Positions 22,859 to 34,236 of a DNA stretch of 64,000 nt are shown here, piece after piece (within the stretch, counting starts at the first letter, position 1; every line of letters begins with the position of its first letter). A model generated the notes under the pieces. The model did not search any database, was not told the DNA's origin, and was given only the letters and a program-made list of their open reading frames with translations. The translations under genes were made by a program, and so were the position numbers. Origin of the DNA: Verrucomicrobiota bacterium (lineage in GTDB: Bacteria > Verrucomicrobiota > Verrucomicrobiia > Verrucomicrobiales > DEV007); contig JAGWVU010000020.1 of NCBI GenBank assembly GCA_018970725.1, positions 1 to 64,000 on the forward strand, in the 5' to 3' direction.

Positions 22859-23347
22859 ATGGAGTCGCACGAGGTCATGAAGGAAGCCCTGAATCGGACG
22901 AGCCCGAAAGCCGTGGCCGCGGACCTGCAGGTCTCACTCTCCTTGGTCTACAAATGGGCGCAACCTTGCACCGACCTCGGTTCCGGGAGCCGCAACCCGC
23001 TGGACCGGGTCCGGCGCATCATGGAATTGACCGCTGAACCCAAGATCATCGAATGGCTTTGCCAGCAGGCGGGCGGGCACTTCGTTCCCAACCCCGAGCC
23101 GAGCGGCCAACCCGCCTTTGAGATTGAGACCGGCACGAATGCGATCGTCAACCAGTTCGCCCAATTGCTCGGCGTGATCACCCATGCCGCCGCGGACCGC
23201 TCGATCGGGGCGGACGAGTCCGAACGGATCCGGGAAGTTTGGGATCACCTGAAATCCGTCACCGAAGGCTTCGTCCGGTGTTGCGAAGAAGGGGACTTCG
23301 AGCAGGCTTCCACCCTCGCCCGCAACGCCCGAACGCTGGGCCGTTGA
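22859..23347 (+). CDS. CII-like helix-turn-helix protein
   Basis: The 162-residue protein begins with a helix-turn-helix-like segment, ALNRTSPKAVAADLQVSLSL followed by VYKWAQ, which resembles phage CII-type regulators. The rest is helical (IVNQFAQLLGVITHAAADRS, then IREVWDHLKSVTEGFVRCCEEGDF). No phage gene is nearby, so this is probably a domesticated regulator; PVC genomes carry similar stand-alone proteins. It is divergent from the cytochrome gene (155 bp apart) and 23 bp before the sulfatase. Confidence 0.6.
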   Translation: MESHEVMKEALNRTSPKAVAADLQVSLSLVYKWAQPCTDLGSGSRNPLDRVRRIMELTAEPKIIEWLCQQAGGHFVPNPEPSGQPAFEIETGTNAIVNQFAQLLGVITHAAADRSIGADESERIREVWDHLKSVTEGFVRCCEEGDFEQASTLARNARTLGR

Positions 23348-23370
23348 ACCTAACCCCTGATTGCATCGCC

Positions 23371-24966
23371 ATGACCCCCCTTCGCCCATCGCGGGTTTTT
23401 CTCGCGCTCCTCTGCTTCCTGACTGCGCCCGCCTTGGCCGCCCCACGGCCCAACATCCTGTTCATCTTCTCGGACGATCATGCGCAGAATGCCATTTCCG
23501 CCTACGGCTCCAAGGTCAACACCACGCCGAACCTCGATCGCCTCGCCTCCTCGGGAGCCCGCTTCCTGAACTCCTTCGTCACCAATTCCATCTGCACACC
23601 GAGCCGGGCCACCCTCCTCACGGGCCAATATTCCCACCTCAACGGAGTGCCCGTGTTCAATCGGTTCGACGGCTCCCGCGATCATGCGGCCAAACACCTC
23701 CAAGCCGCCGGATACCACACCGGAGTCATTGGGAAATGGCATCTCGGGAGTGATCCCACCGGATTCGACCGCTGGATCATCCTGCCCGGGCAGGGCAACT
23801 ATCAGGACCCGGCCTTCCTCGTGCCGGGCGGCAAACTGACCCTCAAGGGCCATTGCACGCCCCTCACCACCGATCTCGGCCTAGAATTCCTCCGGACCCG
23901 GCCCAAGGAAAAGCCCTTTTTCCTGATGCTCCACCACAAGGCGCCCCACCGCGAATGGCAACCGGATCCCGAAAGCGCCGCGCTCTTCGCAAACCGGGTC
24001 TTCCCGGAGCCTGACACGCTCTTCGACACCTACGCCACCCGTCCCGCCGCCCTGCCGGAAAACGAACAGACGGTGGCCCGGGACCTGACCCGCAAAGACC
24101 TCAAGCTCGTGCCCCCGGCCAGCGTCGAAGGCCCTGCCAAAGCCCAATGGCTCCGGGAAAAACCGACCGAAGTCGAGGTGGATGGCAAAACACTGACCGG
24201 CCGGGAACTGGTCCAATGGAAATACCAACGCTACCTGCGCGACTACCTCGCCTGCGTCCACGGGGTCGATACCAGCGTGGGCCAAATCCTCGACTTCCTC
24301 CAAACCGAAGGCCTCGCGGAGAACACCATCGTGATCTACTCCGCGGACAACGGCTGGTATCTCGGTGAACTCGGACTCTACGACAAACGATTCATGTATG
24401 AACCCGGCTTGCGCGTGCCCCTGCTGGCGAGCGGTCCGGGAATCAAGGGAGGGATCACGCCGCAGGCCTTTGTCGCCAACATCGATCTCGCGCCCACCTT
24501 CCTCGACCTCGCCGGACTTCCCATCCCCACCTCCATGCAAGGCCGCAGCCTCGCGCCCCTCTTGCGCGGCGAATCCCCGCCGGACTGGCGCCGGAGCGTC
24601 TACTATCGTTATTACCACAGTCCGGGGCATCACAACACCGCCGCCCACTACGGAGTCCGCACCGCCACGCACAAACTCATCCATTACTGGCAGAAGAACG
24701 CTTACGAACTCTTCGATCTCACCAAGGACCCCACCGAACAACACAACCTCCTCTTCGACCCCGCCGAAGCCGGTTCTCCCGCCGTGGCCGCCCTTTTCAC
24801 TTCCCTGAAAAGCGAAACCGCACGACTCCAGGCCGAGTTCATGGACGACGGCCGGTTCGCCGATCCCGCCACCTGGCCGGAGGGAGGTGTCGATGGCGGT
24901 TTCGAGAGCCGCACTCCGCTCGGGACGAAAACCGTGTCCGAGGCCGTGGCCGCCTCCGCGCCCTGA
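23371..24966 (+). CDS. Secreted arylsulfatase-type sulfatase
   Basis: The 531-residue protein has a signal peptide (VFLALLCFLTAPALAA) and a sulfatase fold. The formylglycine motif is CTPSRATLLTG (Cys 75), a Cys-type site that needs an activating enzyme not seen in this window. FIFSDDHAQN supplies metal ligands, IGKWHLG and MLHHKAPHREW follow, and YSADNGWYLGELGLYDK marks the second metal site. Many marine and soil Verrucomicrobiota use such enzymes to desulfate polysaccharides. The substrate cannot be told from sequence. Confidence 0.92.
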   Translation: MTPLRPSRVFLALLCFLTAPALAAPRPNILFIFSDDHAQNAISAYGSKVNTTPNLDRLASSGARFLNSFVTNSICTPSRATLLTGQYSHLNGVPVFNRFDGSRDHAAKHLQAAGYHTGVIGKWHLGSDPTGFDRWIILPGQGNYQDPAFLVPGGKLTLKGHCTPLTTDLGLEFLRTRPKEKPFFLMLHHKAPHREWQPDPESAALFANRVFPEPDTLFDTYATRPAALPENEQTVARDLTRKDLKLVPPASVEGPAKAQWLREKPTEVEVDGKTLTGRELVQWKYQRYLRDYLACVHGVDTSVGQILDFLQTEGLAENTIVIYSADNGWYLGELGLYDKRFMYEPGLRVPLLASGPGIKGGITPQAFVANIDLAPTFLDLAGLPIPTSMQGRSLAPLLRGESPPDWRRSVYYRYYHSPGHHNTAAHYGVRTATHKLIHYWQKNAYELFDLTKDPTEQHNLLFDPAEAGSPAVAALFTSLKSETARLQAEFMDDGRFADPATWPEGGVDGGFESRTPLGTKTVSEAVAASAP

Positions 24967-25028: not shown

Positions 25029-26384
25029 ATGCACCCCATGTCCTCCGCAGGTGCAGACCCCGCATTGAATCCCGGCAGCCCCGTGACCGCCGAGACCCCG
25101 CCGGACTGGCGGTCGCTCTGGGCCATGCTGCTGCTCCAGGCGCAAACGGTTTTCAACACCAAGGTTGCCCAATTCACCCTGATTGGGCTGGCCGGTGTCC
25201 TCGCCGCGAACCTTTTGGAGGCGGACCCATCGGTCGCCGGGAGCCGGCGCTACACCACGCTGAAGAACGCGGAACAAGTCCTCTTTGCCATTTCTTCAGC
25301 CACCTTTCTTCTCATCGCCCCCCTCAGCGGTTGGGTCGCGGACCGGTTTTCCAAACGCTCGGTCCTCCTCGGCTGCCTCTGGACCCAAGCCATCGCTCTC
25401 GCCTGGATCGCCTCCTGCCTCTGCCTCCGCCAATTCTGGTTGGGGGTCGCCGGTTTCTGCCTCATCGAAGTCCAGGCCACCCTCGCCAACCCCGCCAAAT
25501 TCGGCATCTGCAAGGAACTCGTCGGCAGCAGCGCTCTGGGCCGCGCCGTGAGCCTCTTGCAAATGCTGATCGTCGTTTCCATCATCGCCGGCACCGTCGC
25601 CGGAGGCCAGGCCTTCGCCATCCTCAACCCGAAGGAGGGAGATTGGCAGGCGGCCATCCAGATCGTCTCCGTCCTCCTCGCCGCCACCGTGGTCCAGTTC
25701 GTCCTCGGCTTCCTCGTCCGGCGCACGCCCGTCCAGTCACGGGAACCGTTCCACCCCGGCCTCCTCTGCTGCCACTTCGAACGCGTCGCCGAGGTTCTCG
25801 GCCACCAGACGTTGCGCCATCCCGCCCTCGGCGCCGCTTACTTTTCCTTCGCCGCCCAAGTCACCTCTCTCGGCCTGATCCTCGTCGGCAAGGAAGTTTA
25901 CCCTCTGCCCGGGGAAGCCACCGCCAAGTCGGCCATCCTCGTCGGCCTCGTCGGCATCGGCAACGCCGTCGGCAGTCTCGTCGTCGCCCTGATCTGCCGG
26001 AAACGCATCGTCCTCGGCACCGTGGCCGTCGGCGGACTCGGCATGGCCGGCGGTCTGGCCGCCCTCGCGTTTCTCGACCTCGCCGCTTCCCCTCCGCCGC
26101 TCTACTTCGGCTCGGTCGGAGCCATCGGATTTTTCGCGGCCCTGTTCCTTGTTCCCCTCTATTCCTTCATTCAGGAAAAGGCCGAACCGGAACGCCGGGG
26201 CCGGATCACTTCCACCGTCAACATCATGAACTCCATGTCCGGCCTGGCCGGAATCGGATTTGTCGCCACCCTCGGTCTCCTCCGGCTGGATTCCGACGCC
26301 ATCTTCCTGATCCTCGGCACCATGACCCTCGTGAGCAGTTTCGCCATCATGGCCCTCCTGCGCCCCCTCTCCTCATCCTCATGA
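25029..26384 (+). CDS. MFS transporter, LplT-like (lysophospholipid transporter)
   Basis: The 451-residue protein has about 12 membrane segments. The MFS loop motif reads SGWVADRFSKRSVL, and GKEVYPLP and RRGRITSTVNIMNSMSGLAG recall LplT/Aas-type flippases, including the 'ARxxA..N' end. LplT moves lysophospholipids across the inner membrane for re-acylation by Aas. The following gene begins at the overlapping ATGA (26381-26384) and encodes a PlsC-type acyltransferase, which strongly supports this assignment. A second ATG lies 9 bp in. Confidence 0.88.
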   Translation: MHPMSSAGADPALNPGSPVTAETPPDWRSLWAMLLLQAQTVFNTKVAQFTLIGLAGVLAANLLEADPSVAGSRRYTTLKNAEQVLFAISSATFLLIAPLSGWVADRFSKRSVLLGCLWTQAIALAWIASCLCLRQFWLGVAGFCLIEVQATLANPAKFGICKELVGSSALGRAVSLLQMLIVVSIIAGTVAGGQAFAILNPKEGDWQAAIQIVSVLLAATVVQFVLGFLVRRTPVQSREPFHPGLLCCHFERVAEVLGHQTLRHPALGAAYFSFAAQVTSLGLILVGKEVYPLPGEATAKSAILVGLVGIGNAVGSLVVALICRKRIVLGTVAVGGLGMAGGLAALAFLDLAASPPPLYFGSVGAIGFFAALFLVPLYSFIQEKAEPERRGRITSTVNIMNSMSGLAGIGFVATLGLLRLDSDAIFLILGTMTLVSSFAIMALLRPLSSSS

Positions 26385-28222
26385 ACGGCAAATCCCTGGC
26401 CCGCGTTCTCGCCCGCGCCTTCGTCGCCGGCGTGGTCCGGCTGATTTACCGGGTCCGCGCTCTCAACACCGCGAACGTCCCGGCGGAAGGCGGCGTCCTC
26501 ATGGTGAGCAACCACGTGACCTATGTGGATGCCTTCATGATCAGCCTCGCCTGCCCGCGCCCCGTCCGGTTCGTGATCATCGATCACTTCCTCAAGGTCA
26601 AGGTCTTCGCCTGGTTTCTCCGCCTCTTCGATGCCGTGCCCATTTCCCCGACCCGGGCCAAGGAAGCGATCCGCACCGCCGCCGATGCCGTCAAGGAAGG
26701 GTCCGTGGTCTGCATTTTCCCGGAGGGCCAGCTGACGCGCACCGGTATGCTGACGGAGTTGAAGAAAGGCTTCGAACTCATCGCCAGACTTGCCGAATGC
26801 CCCGTCCTGCCGGTCTACATGGACTCCCTCTGGGGTTCCATCTTCTCCTTTGAACGCTTCCGCTATTTCAACAAAAAGCCCAAGCAGTTCCCCTACCCGG
26901 TGACCGTCAATTTCGGACCGGTGATCCCGATGGAAAACGTGGCCGGTGATTCCGTGCGGGCCGCCATCCTCGATCTCTCGGTGGATGCCTTGGCCGCGCG
27001 CGACAACTTCCGGCACTCCCTCGGCTCCTCCCTCCTCCGCTCCCTGCGCCGTGGCGGCTCCAAGGATCAATTCGTCGACCTGGGGCGCCAGGTCCGCGCC
27101 TTCAGCGCCCGCCAGCTCGGCACCCTCGCCTTCGCCCTCGCGAGACTCTGGCGGGACCACTGGCCCGAGGAAGGCTCGCGGCGCGTCGGCCTGTTGCTGC
27201 CGACCGGCACCATGTCCACCCTGTTCCACGCGGCCATCGTGCTGGCGGGCCGGGTTCCGGTTTGCCTGCCGCTCCGCCTTTTGGAAATGCCTCCGGCGGA
27301 ACGCGATGCCCTGCTGGCCGGTCTGGGCATCACCCGGATCGTCTCCTCGAGACCGCTCTTTTCCCGCAACGAGTTCCCGCGGGATGGCGTCGATTTCCGG
27401 GAAGCCCTGGCCCGGATCGACCCGGCGCGCCAACTCGGGGCCAGAGTCCTTTTCCGGGCCCTTCCGGTCCGCACACTCGAGGCCATGCTGCAACTCGGAG
27501 GCGGGGATCTTGAGTCCGAGGCGGCGGCCTATCTGACCGACAGCTTTCATCTGGTGAGCCGGAGTCACCGGGGGATCATCGCCACCGTGGAACAGATCGA
27601 CAGCGCCCTGGTCGTCCTTCCGAAGGACAAAATCCTTGTGCAGTCCCCCTTCCACACGCCGGCGGCCCAGGTCTTCGGACTCTGGCATCCGTTGCTCGAG
27701 GGAAGCCGCGCCCTTTACCGGACCCCGGCCGCGATGAACGTGGAACTTCCCCTCGTCCTCCGGGATCAGTCCCCCGGGCTCGTCCTCATCGATCCGGCCA
27801 TGCAACTGGAACTGGCCCGGCTCCAACCCCTGCCCCCGTCCAACGTCCGGGTCTGGCTCGATTTCAGTGAATCGGCCCTGGCCCCGGAAATCGCCGCACA
27901 ACTCGGCGAGGAAGGCGGAGCCTACTGCCACGGGTTGGCTCCGGAACCGCTCGGCCTCATCGTCTCCATGAACACGAACGACCCGAACGCGATGATCCCG
28001 CAGCATCAACCGCAGTTCGGAAACCGCCGGGGCTCCCTCGGCAAGATCCTGCCGGGATTCTCCCCCCGTCTCGTGATCTCGGGAGAGGCCACCTCGCTCT
28101 TCGGCCAGGGAGCCCTCGAGATCCGTGGCGGCCCGCTGTCCCCCGGCTGGCACCCCGCCGGCTTGTCCGGTAGCTTTGACCGCGAGGGCTTCTTCAACCC
28201 CGCCCCCCGTCCGGACGCCTGA
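26381..28222 (+). CDS. Aas-like fusion: PlsC acyltransferase plus degenerate acyl-ACP synthetase domain
   Basis: The 613-residue protein has an active-looking PlsC domain (about 1-205): NHVTYVD (HxxxxD, His45/Asp50) and FPEGQLTRTG. Residues about 230-600 follow the layout of the adenylating acyl-ACP synthetase of Aas, including LLLPTGTMSTLFHAAIVLAG and the GKILPGFSPRLV block. However, the P-loop (normally TSGSxGxPKG) reads AYLTDSFHLVSRSHRG (383-398), and the C-terminal subdomain with the catalytic Lys is absent. Adenylation is therefore unlikely. I infer lysophospholipid or 1-acylglycerol-3-phosphate acylation, with the tail as regulator or acyl-ACP binder. It overlaps the MFS gene by 4 bp. 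Confidence 0.85.
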   Translation: MNGKSLARVLARAFVAGVVRLIYRVRALNTANVPAEGGVLMVSNHVTYVDAFMISLACPRPVRFVIIDHFLKVKVFAWFLRLFDAVPISPTRAKEAIRTAADAVKEGSVVCIFPEGQLTRTGMLTELKKGFELIARLAECPVLPVYMDSLWGSIFSFERFRYFNKKPKQFPYPVTVNFGPVIPMENVAGDSVRAAILDLSVDALAARDNFRHSLGSSLLRSLRRGGSKDQFVDLGRQVRAFSARQLGTLAFALARLWRDHWPEEGSRRVGLLLPTGTMSTLFHAAIVLAGRVPVCLPLRLLEMPPAERDALLAGLGITRIVSSRPLFSRNEFPRDGVDFREALARIDPARQLGARVLFRALPVRTLEAMLQLGGGDLESEAAAYLTDSFHLVSRSHRGIIATVEQIDSALVVLPKDKILVQSPFHTPAAQVFGLWHPLLEGSRALYRTPAAMNVELPLVLRDQSPGLVLIDPAMQLELARLQPLPPSNVRVWLDFSESALAPEIAAQLGEEGGAYCHGLAPEPLGLIVSMNTNDPNAMIPQHQPQFGNRRGSLGKILPGFSPRLVISGEATSLFGQGALEIRGGPLSPGWHPAGLSGSFDREGFFNPAPRPDA

Positions 28223-28439: not shown

Positions 28440-29711
28440 ATGGACAATCAAGTTTTCATCAACCCTGCCTCCATGCCCCGCCCTCCGAAACGATTCCTCG
28501 CCGAACCCTTCGCCTATCACCAGCAGATCGAGGTCCGCATCGACAACCTCACCAACCTCGGCCTCGGGGTTGGCAGGGTGGATGGATGGGTCGTCATGAT
28601 CCCGTTTGCCTTGCCCGGGGAACGGGTCCGCGCGAGCGTCTACCACAATCACAAAAACTACAGCGAGGCGGACCTCGTCGAAGTCCTTGAGCCCTCCCCG
28701 GACCGGATCGCCCCGCGTTGCCCCCTGTTCGCCACCTGCGGCGGTTGCCAATACCAGAACCTCGCCTACGAACGGCAGCTCGAATGGAAACGCGAGCAGG
28801 TCGCCTCCCTGCTGCAACGCCTCGCCGGCATCCAGGACGCCACCGTGGATCCCGTGATCCCCTCCCCGCTCCGTTACGGATACCGTTCCAAAATCACCCC
28901 CCATTTCCAGCAACCGCGCGACGGCCGGATCGGCCCCATCGGCTTCCTTCAGGCCGGGCAACGTTTCAAGTTGGTCGATGTCCCGCAATGCCCCATCGCC
29001 TCCGAACCGCTCAACCGCGCCCTCACCAACATCCGTGCCGAGGTCCACGCCAAAACCGAAACCTTCCGGCGCGGGGCCACCCTGCTGCTCCGGGAATCCC
29101 TGGGAGGGGAGGTCCTCACCGGTTCCGAGGAAATCTGTGAACAAGAGGTCGGCCCCATCCGCTTCCGCTTTCCCGCCGGCGGCTTCTTCCAAACCAACCC
29201 CTCCATCCTCCCCGCCTTTGTCGATCACGTCCGCTCCGAGGCCGTCCGCTCCGGAGCGCGTTTCCTCGTGGACGCCTACTGCGGCAGCGGTCTCTTCGCC
29301 CTCTGCTGCGCCAGCGGTTTCGAACGGGTCGCCGGGATCGAGGTCAACGAGGGCTCCCTCCTCCGGGCCCGGGAAAACGCCGCCGCCAACCACATCCACC
29401 ACGCCTCCTTCCTCGTCGGCAGCGCCGAGGCCATCTTCGCCCAAATCGATTTCCCGCCGGCCGCCACCGCCGTCGTCATCGATCCCCCGCGCAAGGGTTG
29501 CAGCCCGGAATTCCTCGAACAACTCTTCGCCTTCGGCCCGGGATCCGTGGTCTACGTCTCCTGTGATCCCGCCACCCAGATGCGCGACCTCGCCGCCTTC
29601 CGGGAACACGGTTACACCCTGACCCGGGTACAACCCTTCGATCTCTTTCCCCAGACCAGACACCTCGAGTGCGTCGTCACCCTGGTCAAGGCGGGCGCGG
29701 CCCATCCCTGA
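28440..29711 (+). CDS. TrmA/RumA-family RNA m5U methyltransferase
   Basis: The 423-residue protein methylates uridine C5 in rRNA or tRNA with SAM. A TRAM domain (about 28-85) is followed by an iron-sulfur site (CPLFATCGGCQY with a later CPIA), a Rossmann core (VDAYCGSGLFAL), DPPRKG and the catalytic Cys in VYVSCDPAT. The four-Cys cluster suggests the RlmD/RlmC type rather than TrmA. Alternative ATG at 28473. It is followed 68 bp later by the LamG gene. Confidence 0.92.
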   Translation: MDNQVFINPASMPRPPKRFLAEPFAYHQQIEVRIDNLTNLGLGVGRVDGWVVMIPFALPGERVRASVYHNHKNYSEADLVEVLEPSPDRIAPRCPLFATCGGCQYQNLAYERQLEWKREQVASLLQRLAGIQDATVDPVIPSPLRYGYRSKITPHFQQPRDGRIGPIGFLQAGQRFKLVDVPQCPIASEPLNRALTNIRAEVHAKTETFRRGATLLLRESLGGEVLTGSEEICEQEVGPIRFRFPAGGFFQTNPSILPAFVDHVRSEAVRSGARFLVDAYCGSGLFALCCASGFERVAGIEVNEGSLLRARENAAANHIHHASFLVGSAEAIFAQIDFPPAATAVVIDPPRKGCSPEFLEQLFAFGPGSVVYVSCDPATQMRDLAAFREHGYTLTRVQPFDLFPQTRHLECVVTLVKAGAAHP

Positions 29712-29779: not shown

Positions 29780-32755
29780 ATGCTCCCGATCCGTATCATT
29801 CTCTGCCTCATTCTCCTTCCCGCGCCGGTCCGGGGGCAGGCTGCCCGGTCCCCGTTGGCTTCCTGCATGCCACGGGCGGCCGATCACACCCTGATGTTCT
29901 GGGAGGATGGCTTTCCCGGGCATACGCCTTCCGCCCCCTGGCACCGCGTCATCCGCACCGGACACTACGCCATGGTGCTGGACACCGACACCCTGCGGAT
30001 CCCGCACCTCGGCCCCCTCGGGCCCGGCGGCGGTTACCTCGCGTCCGCCCTCGAGCCGGATCCGGCCTGGAAATCGCTCCCCGGCACGGACCTCGATCTC
30101 CGGATCACGGCGGAGGGCAAGACCTGGCGTTGCGTTTCCGGCGGGCCATGGACCCGGTTCGCCGGTCCCCGGATCGTCGAGTCCGGCCGCTTCCTGCAAC
30201 GCGGTGATGTCACCGGCCTGCGCTTCCGGTCGGACGATGGCGCGGAACTCAACACCGAGGCCCGCCTCGAGACCGTGGCCTGGCCGGACCGGCTCGGCTT
30301 GATCCTCGCGGCGCGCCCGGGCCTCCGGCCGATTCCTCCGGGAGAACCCTGCTTCGGCCACGAGGGCGGCGGCTTCGGTCTGGACGGGACCAACCACTTC
30401 GAAGTGCCTCACGCGCCGGAATGGGACCGGGAAACCTTCACCCTGGAACTCCAGGTCTATGTTCCCACGGACTTCCAGCCCCCGGCGAAAACCTTTCCCT
30501 GGCTGGTCTGCAAAAACCGCCATGAAGAGGCGGAGGGAAACTACGGGATCGTCCTCCTCAACGGCAAAGCACAGGGACGTCTCAACATCGGCGGCGGCAG
30601 GGAGAACGCCTTCACCGCGGATGCCGCCACCCCGCTCCGGACCGAGGCCTGGAATCATCTCGCCATCAGTTATGATGGCCGTGTTTTCCGGTTATACCAA
30701 AACGGCGCGCTTGCCGCGGAACGATCCATCGGCCGCCCGCGCGTCCCCGGCCGCGCCGGACTCTCCTTCGGCCGCCGTCAGGACAACTTCGGGGACGGTT
30801 ATCATTTCCGCGGCGTGATCGACGACATCCGCCTCCATGACCACGCCCTGACCGCGGAGGAATGGAAGGCCCCGGCCCGCCCGGTGCCCTTGCGCGAGTT
30901 CCGCTTTTCCCCGTCCGGGCAGGCCAGCCCCGTGCAACCCCGGGAAGTTTGGCGGGATGTCAGGCTGCACCTCGGCCTTCCCGCGCTCTCCCTCACTTCC
31001 GAAACCTCCGCTTCGGGCCCGTCCTGGGCCGAGACGGGACTCTGTTTCGACCCCGCCACCTCCCGGCCTGACACCACCCCGGTCAGGGTCGAGGCTTCCG
31101 GCCATCCGGTCGATCACGACGCCCGCCGCGCCTGGCACCGCATCCAACTGGATGGGGTCGTTCCCACCGGCAAGGAAAACGATGCCATCGAGCGGGTCCG
31201 TCTTCTCCTGACCAATCCCTCACCCGGGCCACAAACGGCCAGGCTGCTTTTTGAAAAGAGCGCGAGCGGGTTCAAGCACCGCTTCGGCGCACCGGTCACC
31301 GGGATCTCCGCGATCCTGCGGACCCCTGACGGCTATCCCTCCGGGATCCCGGTGCAACTCAGCAAAAACTGGCACAACCGCCCGGAAGGGGGCGTCCATT
31401 CGGGACAATGGTTCCACGGGTTTTCCCAGGTCCGCCTGCCCCCGTCATCGGACCTCGAATTGGAACTCGTCATCGTCTACGGTCATTGGGGAGGCCTGCC
31501 CGCCGCCTCACACGCCCAGCTCTGTCTCATCGGTTGGGGCAGCAACCAGCTTTGGGACCAGAGCGCCTTGGGTGCGTGGGGGGAAAGCATCTGTTATGAA
31601 CCTGACCAAGTGCAAGCTGCCTGCAGCATTCTCGACGTCCGGCCTGTCATGGTCTCCGGCATGTCGAAAAACAGCCGCTGGAGCTGGACCCACAACGTGG
31701 GCGGGGGCGATTTTTTCCGGTTCTTCGATCCCCCGGGCACCCGCGTCTTCCCCTCCGCCATGCGAACCGCTTACCTCCGTCAGGGGCCCTGCCTCACCGA
31801 AGTCACCTATGCCGGGCGGACCGGCCCCGGTCTGCGTCATCACGCCACCGCAAGCCTTGCCCGCACCCATGACCTCGTGCGCGCCACCTATCACCTCCGC
31901 CTCGATGCGAGCCGGGCCGTGCCCTTCTCCCGCCTCGTCCTCTTTCAAGTGGGAGCGGACTCTTACCTTTACACCGCGGAACGCAAGTTCGCCCTCGGAA
32001 ACGAAACCGGGCTGCTCCGGGAATGGGACGCCGCTTGGGTCGGGAACGGCCACCCCGGCGCTCCGGTGGAAGCCACGGGAGACACCCCCTGGATTTCCCT
32101 CCACCAAGGCACACGGCGGAACGGGACGCCCCCCGAAGGAGCTTGGGCCAACCGCGGTCTCGTGATCCGCCAGTGGAAGGCCCGTCTCGGCGGCCGGACC
32201 GCGTCTCCCTGGATCGCCGAACACGAATCCAAGGCCCACGGCACGCCCGGTTCCACCATCGATCTCCTCCCTCCACCCGGCCTGAACCGTCTTGAACCCG
32301 GGGATTTCGTGGACGCCACCCTCGAATTTCTCGTCGTCCCCCAAAACGCCGCGGACTACTTTGGGCCCGACCCCGCCCTGCGCGCGGCGCTCGCCAAAGA
32401 CGGCAACACCTGGCGGCTCATCCAACGCGAGGCCTCGGACAATCACCGGATGGTCACCGTCACCGAGGGCACCGAAGAGCATCGTTACCCCGACATCCGC
32501 ATCGCGACCGATCACGACCGGGCCCGGTTCACCGTCACCGGGGGCCTCGGTTACGTCCCGGTCACCTTCTCCGGACTGTCGTCTCCTTCTGCCCACCGCC
32601 TCAGCGTCGATGGCATCACAATCGACCAATCCGTCCACGGCCGGGACTTCTGGCAGTGCGACCATGATCCCGCCTCCAACACCTGGAGCCTCTCCTACAA
32701 TCTCCCCTTCCCCCCGGGCCGAACCCACGACGTCCAGCTTTCACCCGCCCCATGA
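29780..32755 (+). CDS. Large secreted LamG-domain protein
   Basis: The 991-residue protein has a signal peptide ([20 protein letters not shown]) and a LamG/concanavalin-like domain at about 195-370: [39 protein letters not shown] and [20 protein letters not shown]. The remaining 600 residues are beta-rich and unrecognised; they have the size and aromatic content of a polysaccharide-processing or carbohydrate-binding region. I would not name an enzyme. Its TGA overlaps the glpK ATG (ATGA, 32752-32755), so both are translated from one message. Confidence 0.8.
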
Positions 32756-34236
32756 AGCATCTCCTCGCCCTCGACCAAGGGACCACCAGTTCCCGCGCCA
32801 TCGTTTTCGACGAAAACGGCACCCCCGTTTCCACGGCCCAACGCGAGCACCGCCAATTCTACCCCGCCGCCGGTTGGGTCGAACACGATCCGGCGGAAAT
32901 TTGGCGGAACCAACTCTCCGTGGCGGAAGAGGCTCTGGCGGGGGCCCGGCTCTCCGCCCGGGACATCAGCGGACTGGGCATCACCAACCAACGCGAGACC
33001 ACCATCGTCTGGGACCGGCGCACCGGGCGGCCCCTCTGCCCGGCCATCGTCTGGCAAGACCGGCGCACCGCGGATCATTGCGCTTCCCTGCGGGACGCGG
33101 GGCACGGCCCTCTCTTCACCCGGCGCACCGGGCTGCGGCTCGATCCCTATTTCAGCGGCACCAAAATCGCCTGGATCCTGGACAACATCCCGGAAGCCCG
33201 GGATCGCGCCGCCGGGGGCGGATTGCTTTTCGGCACGGTGGATTCCTGGTTGATCTGGAATCTGACCGGCGGCGCGGTCCACGCCACGGATGTCAGCAAC
33301 GCCTCCCGCACCCTGCTGCTCAACCTGCACACCAGTGGCTGGGACCCGGACTGCCTCGCCGCCCTCGGGATTCCCGGAAGCATGTTACCCAAGGTGGTGG
33401 ATAGCAGCGGCATCCTCGCGGAAGTGTCCGCCCCGGGCCCGTTGCAGGGCATTCCCATCGCGGGCATCGCCGGAGATCAGCAAGCCGCGCTTTTCGGCCA
33501 GGCCTGTTTCGAACCCGGCATGGCCAAGAACACTTACGGGACCGGCTGTTTCCTGCTCCTCCACACCGGCCGGGTCCCGGTCATCTCCCTGAACAACCTC
33601 CTGACCACCATCGCCTGGCGCATCGACGGACAAACGGAGTATGCCTTGGAAGGTTCCGTGTTCATGGGCGGAGCGGTGGTTCAATGGCTCCGCGACGAAT
33701 TGCGCATCATCCACAGCGCTCCGGAGTGCGATGACCTTGCCGCCTCGGTGGCAGACGCCGGCGGTCTCTATCTGGTCCCGGCTTTCGCCGGTCTCGGGGC
33801 TCCGCATTGGGACCCCGGAGCCCGCGGCCTCGCCTTCGGCATCACGCGCGGAACCAACCGGGCCCACTTCTGCCGCGCCGCCCTCGAAAGCATCGCCCTG
33901 CAATGTGACGACCTCATCGATTGCATGAGCAAGGACGCCGGCATCCCGCTCAAGGAATTGCGGGTGGACGGCGGCGCCGCCCGCAGCGATCTCCTCATGC
34001 AAATCCAGAGCGACCTTCTCGGGATCCCCGTGGTCCGGCCCCGCTCGTTGGAAATCACCGCGCTCGGAGCCGCCTGCCTCGCGGGCCTCGCCACCGGGGT
34101 GTGGCGGGACCGCAGCGCCATCGCCCGGATCGGCGGGGTCACCACCCGTTTTTGCCCCAGACCCCAGGCCACCTCCGCCTGGCGCGACGATTTTCGCGCC
34201 GGATGGCAACGGGCCGTCGCCCGGTCCCTGTCCTGA
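32752..34236 (+). CDS. glpK: Glycerol kinase
   Basis: GlpK phosphorylates glycerol to sn-glycerol 3-phosphate with ATP. The 494-residue FGGY-family protein has [54 protein letters not shown] and YGTGCFLL, all standard for glycerol kinase rather than a general sugar kinase. No glpF or glpD lies nearby. It is translationally coupled to the preceding LamG gene, an odd pairing, and the PSCyt gene follows 73 bp later. Confidence 0.95.

Follow-up and report, generated by a model that had tools for sequence, protein, structure and literature searches.

Aas of Escherichia coli (b2836) is a bifunctional 2-acyl-GPE acyltransferase and acyl-ACP synthetase in which a PlsC domain is followed by an adenylation domain, and its gene adjoins that of the transporter LplT (b2835). 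A published study of this pair (PMC11416262) describes LplT as binding the transferase domain of Aas only, draws the two steps as separate in its scheme, and reports that Aas self-associates in a two-hybrid assay. In other proteins the LplT, PlsC and AMP-binding domains are fused (families PRK08633 and PRK06814; intact loci L135 and L144), and both active sites are kept.

The 64,000-nucleotide stretch of Verrucomicrobiota DNA analysed here (the window; contig JAGWVU010000020.1) carries a gene, called copy A, that is like E. coli Aas in its adjoining transporter, in the order of its PlsC and adenylation domains, and in its PlsC motifs (Table 1). It differs in that the P-loop, the A5 and A7 motifs and the C-terminal lobe are missing from its adenylation domain, the LplT gene lies before rather than after it, and the synthetase resides in a second gene whose own PlsC domain is dead (copy B). 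The ATG of copy A overlaps the stop of the transporter ORF. Judging by eye from motifs, we take ORF 23239-24966, before the LplT gene, to be sulfatase-like, ORF 28440-29711, after copy A, to be TrmA/RlmD-like methyltransferase, and ORF 32752-34236, further on, to be glycerol-kinase-like.

Table 1. Positions in the window of copy A, its transporter neighbour and their features
Feature	Position	Strand	Details
LplT-like MFS transporter	25029..26384	+	451 aa; PF07690 E 5.5e-31
Copy A: LplT-linked PlsC acyltransferase with degenerate adenylation domain	26381..28222	+	613 aa
PlsC acyltransferase domain, intact	26456..26821	+	copy A residues 26-147; PF01553 E 5.7e-26
HX4D catalytic motif H45-D50 (HVTYVD)	26513..26530	+	invariant in alignment A1; H and D in 63/63 copies
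PEG motif P114-G116	26720..26728	+	alignment A1; E and G in 63/63 copies
Adenylation-domain remnant, residues 206-613	26996..28219	+	predicted ANL N-subdomain fold; lacks P-loop, A5, A7 and C-terminal lobe
Site of lost P-loop	27527..27574	+	AYLTDSFHLVSRSHRG in place of TSGSSGxPKG of intact homologues
GKILPG block (GRLLPG in most relatives)	28040..28057	+	best-preserved block of the remnant

Copy A has the linked LplT transporter that is one defining feature of bifunctional Aas. Specifically, the upstream ORF matches the transporter part of PRK08633 with an E-value of 5.3e-49 (NCBIfam) and is LplT-like with an E-value of 4.8e-18 to PRK11195, a score below the cut-off of that family. The PlsC domain scores 91.3 bits against PF01553, for which the gathering score is 23 (Pfam), and the HX4D and EG motifs that define PlsC/AGPAT proteins are intact, reading NHVTYVD and FPEGQ. 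The match to AMP-binding (PF00501) is sub-threshold, at 22.2 bits against 29.9 (Pfam), and spans residues 392-565 and profile positions 180-356 of 384, such that it starts past the position of the P-loop. The best NCBIfam match, over residues 6-566, is to PRK08633, the fused LplT-PlsC-AMP family, and its E-value of 1.4e-84 indicates a resemblance to Aas far beyond chance, though the score is far under the cut-off (284.6 versus 1221 bits). Scores for PRK06814 and PRK08043 (100.3 and 86 bits) are also below their cut-offs (1349 and 886).

The original prediction for this gene, made from its letters alone, held that the PlsC part keeps HxxxxD and EGQ and that the adenylation half lacks its P-loop and C-terminal subdomain. 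Both claims are borne out, the first by the motifs and domain match given above and the second by an alignment that also contains E. coli Aas and six intact homologues, and the flanking blocks named at that time are present in the alignment. The P-loop block of copy A reads AYLTD--SFHLVS, A5 (GYGxTE) has become HGLAPEP and A7 (TGD) has become PAGLS. The chain terminates at the A8 hinge, so A10 and the C-terminal lobe (AMP-binding_C) are absent, whereas E. coli Aas extends to the end of the profile. Hence the P-loop and the A5, A7 and A10 catalytic residues of a bifunctional Aas are all lacking, and the synthetase domain, as read from its motifs, is a catalytically empty N-subdomain. Copy A is not an Aas by these defining features; it is an Aas-derived, LplT-coupled acyltransferase whose activity is predicted. 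What persists most faithfully in the remnant is the GKILPG/GRLLPG block, in which G554 and L557 are invariant and P558 and G559 almost so (alignment A1), and a block of this type survives even in the far shorter remnants of loci L042, L047 and L176.

An AlphaFold model of copy A, built from 20 natural sequences, has a mean pLDDT of 85.8 and a pTM of 0.88. Residues ~204-613 of the model superimpose on ANL enzymes with VIA-align Z scores of 34-36 (maximum 36.3) and rmsd values of 2.7-3.3 over 358-385 residues, and the matches include isolated N-domain structures of FACL13 and PqsA. Foldseek, applied to the same model, agrees (ANL match, E 9e-18). The remnant is thus predicted to fold as an ANL N-subdomain, and sharing a fold does not establish function. 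It resembles the N-subdomains of FACL13, PqsA and VinN in this predicted fold, and differs from them in lacking the P-loop, the catalytic residues and the partner C-domain.

A search of the genomes of 57 relatives returned a match in every one, and copy A was found in 46, in some of them cut by a contig end. Five of the other 11 have a full-length gene instead, and six (G004, G006, G007, G013, G031 and G034) have neither. Readable copy A genes number 63, with 42 from this set and 21 from named loci; contig-cut fragments in G003, G009, G024, G025 and G039 and at the named locus L137, and duplicate entries of one gene, were excluded. The PlsC residues H, D, E and G are retained throughout (42/42 and 21/21), the adenylation set K, E, D and K is complete in none (0/63), and the frame is open in every copy read. 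One genome, G020, has two copy A genes (one is L056, G020:C95:65609-66460), each with an intact PlsC and a dead adenylation domain. All 113 genomes of the order that are at least 90% complete match alignment A1, as counted by search match, and in five of these (G006, G034, G211, G218 and G254) the match is no stronger than that of copy B (E 1e-37 to 1e-53).

In three same-genus genomes PlsC has Nei-Gojobori dN/dS values of 0.046-0.064, and the remnant has values of 0.12-0.14; bootstrap upper limits for the whole remnant are below 0.2, and dS reaches 1.3, which makes the values rough. Motif loss, C-terminal truncation and a remnant that erodes fast (29% mean identity across 23 genomes, with 50% for PlsC) and is far shorter or absent in some families might be taken as signs of a decaying pseudogene. 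Such decay is highly improbable given the open frames, the PlsC residues kept in all 63 copies, the low ratios in both the remnant and PlsC (0.05-0.06) and the confident predicted fold, and it was rejected on the basis of dN/dS and of the lesion state that all copies share. The original prediction had proposed looking for a clade-wide loss and for constraint in dN/dS, and both were found; it had also reasoned that a full P-loop and C-terminal lobe in the same gene of close relatives would mark copy A as decaying, and the full-length genes that do occur in 7/57 relatives group elsewhere.

The extent of the remnant varies among families. Genomes of f1 and f3 retain the whole N-subdomain. In f2 and f4 genomes its first half is also gone, leaving ~200 residues with the GRLLPG...GF block at their end. 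In three f6 genomes and one of f4 (G054) nothing follows PlsC, which stands alone behind LplT. All three forward frames past the stop codon were read at L044, L053, L054 and L055 and contain no GRLLPG-like block, and a frameshift or a missed C-lobe was rejected for the genomes that end after PlsC. This graded erosion speaks against the remnant being indispensable. It also bears on the proposal in the original prediction that copy A is a pseudoenzyme kept under selection, perhaps as a sensor. Selection is upheld by the 63 concordant copies, the dN/dS values and the folded model. A remnant that senses acyl-ACP or lysolipid and regulates PlsC would accord with its predicted fold and purifying selection, but this role is unsupported and seems improbable, as no conserved pocket set is apparent, the most conserved residues are structural glycines and prolines, those of GRLLPG among them, and four genomes with LplT-PlsC have lost the remnant altogether.

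The missing synthetase activity has a candidate source elsewhere in the genome. A search for AMP-binding proteins in the genome of the window (G000) identified copy B, a 731-aa ORF on contig C105 in which the adenylation motifs are intact (TSGSSGEPKG, YGLTE, TGD and SGK) and the PlsC motifs are broken (NILSFED and VPGP instead of NHxxxxD and FPEG). Homologues occur in 57/57 relatives, although G013, G029 and G034 are represented by contig-cut fragments only. Among 70 readable copy B genes, none has a complete PlsC set (the His is retained in three and the Glu in one), and 67 have a complete adenylation set; two of the exceptions are contig-cut and the third is L301. These counts exclude fragments L121, L293, L297, L298 and L299, duplicate entries, and L120, which is a genuine Aas. 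At L096 PF01553 still scores 23.7 bits against its cut-off of 23, which indicates that the broken half is indeed a PlsC domain; in five other copies scanned the match is below the cut-off or absent. Constraint mirrors that on copy A, with mean identities across 23 genomes of 34% for PlsC and 63% for the synthetase, and dN/dS values of 0.15-0.33 for the PlsC-like half and 0.053-0.076 for the synthetase. A second gene with the opposite lesion offers a simpler account of the loss in copy A, namely that another gene holds the synthetase function. Small-genome members of f2/g19 have 3-4 copy B-like genes each, and in one of these paralogues, L301 (G036:C18:12212-14407), catalytic residues are gone from the PlsC and the adenylation half alike.

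Outside the order, Aas genes are intact. Both halves are complete at 44/44 outgroup loci, a selection from 58 non-dead named loci. The remaining 14, read separately, include 13 with all four PlsC residues and one (L195) in which D41 is replaced by N; in none of the 14 is an adenylation residue substituted, with five of them incompletely readable. Loci of the same class from the copy B search gave a similar division, with PlsC and adenylation domains intact in all aligned loci from outside the order, and PlsC intact in none from inside it. At a limit of E 1e-40, 16 of 20 out-of-order genomes of this class have a single match, and the remaining four have a second one that is a partial frame or not of Aas length.

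Some genomes within the order carry a fully intact extra gene alongside a copy B that is still broken. Full-length LplT-PlsC-adenylation genes are present in 7/57 relatives (L035-L041, from same-family genomes), with PlsC motifs in 7/7 and an intact synthetase in 6/7. Their architecture and PlsC motifs are like those of copy A, and their tree placement differs: they fall among sequences from Nitrospirota, Sulfopaludibacter and Phycisphaerales, away from copy A. This grouping makes a separate acquisition probable, and it leaves the idea that these genes represent the ancestral state of copy A unsupported. The exception among the seven, L039 (G016:C317:2077-3933), has an altered P-loop (SNGSTGEPKG), an altered A5 (YSCPE) and a stop at A8; it is possibly a case of the same adenylation loss repeating independently in another lineage, as seen on one metagenome-assembled contig. 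Finally, L120 (G050:C66:6291-7658) is a third Aas of its genome that appears intact in both halves by motif, has E. coli-like motifs, and forms an isolated long branch in both the PlsC and the adenylation trees.

Phylogenetic analysis places the two copies apart. A quick PlsC tree requires one change of label for copy A, with a group support of only 53, and an adenylation tree recovers copy B as one group with a support of 99. In a more careful tree that covers both halves, copy A falls within a 100/99 group with the fused intact genes L135 and L144 and with genes titled as Opitutae, and copy B falls in a 99/95 group with L138, L143, L147 and L154, which are stand-alone Aas of the Chthoniobacterales type. 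Forcing copies A and B into a joint clade costs 48.8 log units (p-AU 0.0003), and a recent duplication within the order was rejected by this test, with the caution that the long branches of both degenerate halves weaken deep placements of the two copies. The transporter of copy A likewise groups with those of L135, L144, L136, L145 and L150 (support 98), apart from L036, L038 and L040. Of the named copy A loci, 20/22 have an LplT-like gene no more than 3 kb away, as do L135, L136, L144, L145, L150, L196, L199 and L201; no other named locus has one (some loci have short flanks). As judged from these trees, copies A and B stem from two different intact Aas lineages.

We consider it probable that two Aas lineages met and lost reciprocal halves, splitting lysophospholipid repair between two genes and leaving copy A as an LplT-coupled acyltransferase with a pseudo-synthetase domain. 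In this model, copy A would descend from a bifunctional LplT-linked Aas that served as both lysophospholipid acyltransferase and acyl-ACP synthetase, and the two lineages would have come together in the ancestor of the order Verrucomicrobiales. With both genes in one genome, each half would have been redundant, and each gene would have dropped the half retained by the other. LplT would flip lysophospholipid inward, and at the membrane the PlsC domain of copy A would re-acylate it, using acyl-ACP (or acyl-CoA) produced elsewhere. This donor would arise in trans, with copy B activating free fatty acid, bulk fatty-acid synthesis providing it, or both. What is left of the synthetase in copy A would stay as a folded scaffold, eroding at family-dependent rates. 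Given that LplT binds the transferase domain alone in E. coli, as that study describes, loss of the synthetase need not break the link to the transporter; together with the separate steps in that scheme, this makes an LplT-bound transferase that uses acyl-ACP from solution plausible.

The hand-off of donor from copy B to copy A is an inferred step of this model. Copy A could instead be fed by acyl-ACP made de novo, with copy B serving another purpose such as recycling of exogenous fatty acids, in which case the mirror lesions would be independent and there would be no division of labour. Copies A and B are unlinked in the genome of the window, and scanning of ten frames neighbouring copy B detected no lipid family, so that a lipid operon around copy B was rejected. 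An acyl-ACP pool would also be expected from the PlsY and PlsX families present in this genome, and the f6 genomes and G054 have PlsC alone behind LplT. However, copy B, the synthetase most closely related to Aas, is present in all 57 relatives, the loss in copy A occurs where copy B retains the missing half, and a single intact Aas is the usual state in outgroup genomes. We therefore regard independent lesions as possible but the less likely course. Less likely again is an obligate hetero-complex of copies A and B, each subunit with one live and one dead half, in which the dead halves dock and acyl-ACP is channelled from copy B to the PlsC domain of LplT-bound copy A. Self-association of E. 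coli Aas, as reported in the same study, would provide an ancestor for such a complex.

The reciprocal split of a bifunctional enzyme is the novel aspect of this system, and no description of this split of Aas was found in the open-access literature searched. Beyond the preferred model of divided lysophospholipid repair, the two genes look like a clear-cut bacterial example of reciprocal loss, in which opposite halves of two genes from different Aas lineages are dead across an order. They also present a natural graded series of adenylation-domain loss, from the full domain through the N-subdomain only and a short remnant to none, and they allow a test of whether lysophospholipid repair requires the activation and the transfer of acyl groups to be on one chain. 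For these bacteria, which by contig titles include Akkermansiaceae, an annotation of copy A or copy B as ‘bifunctional Aas’ would assign the wrong activity.
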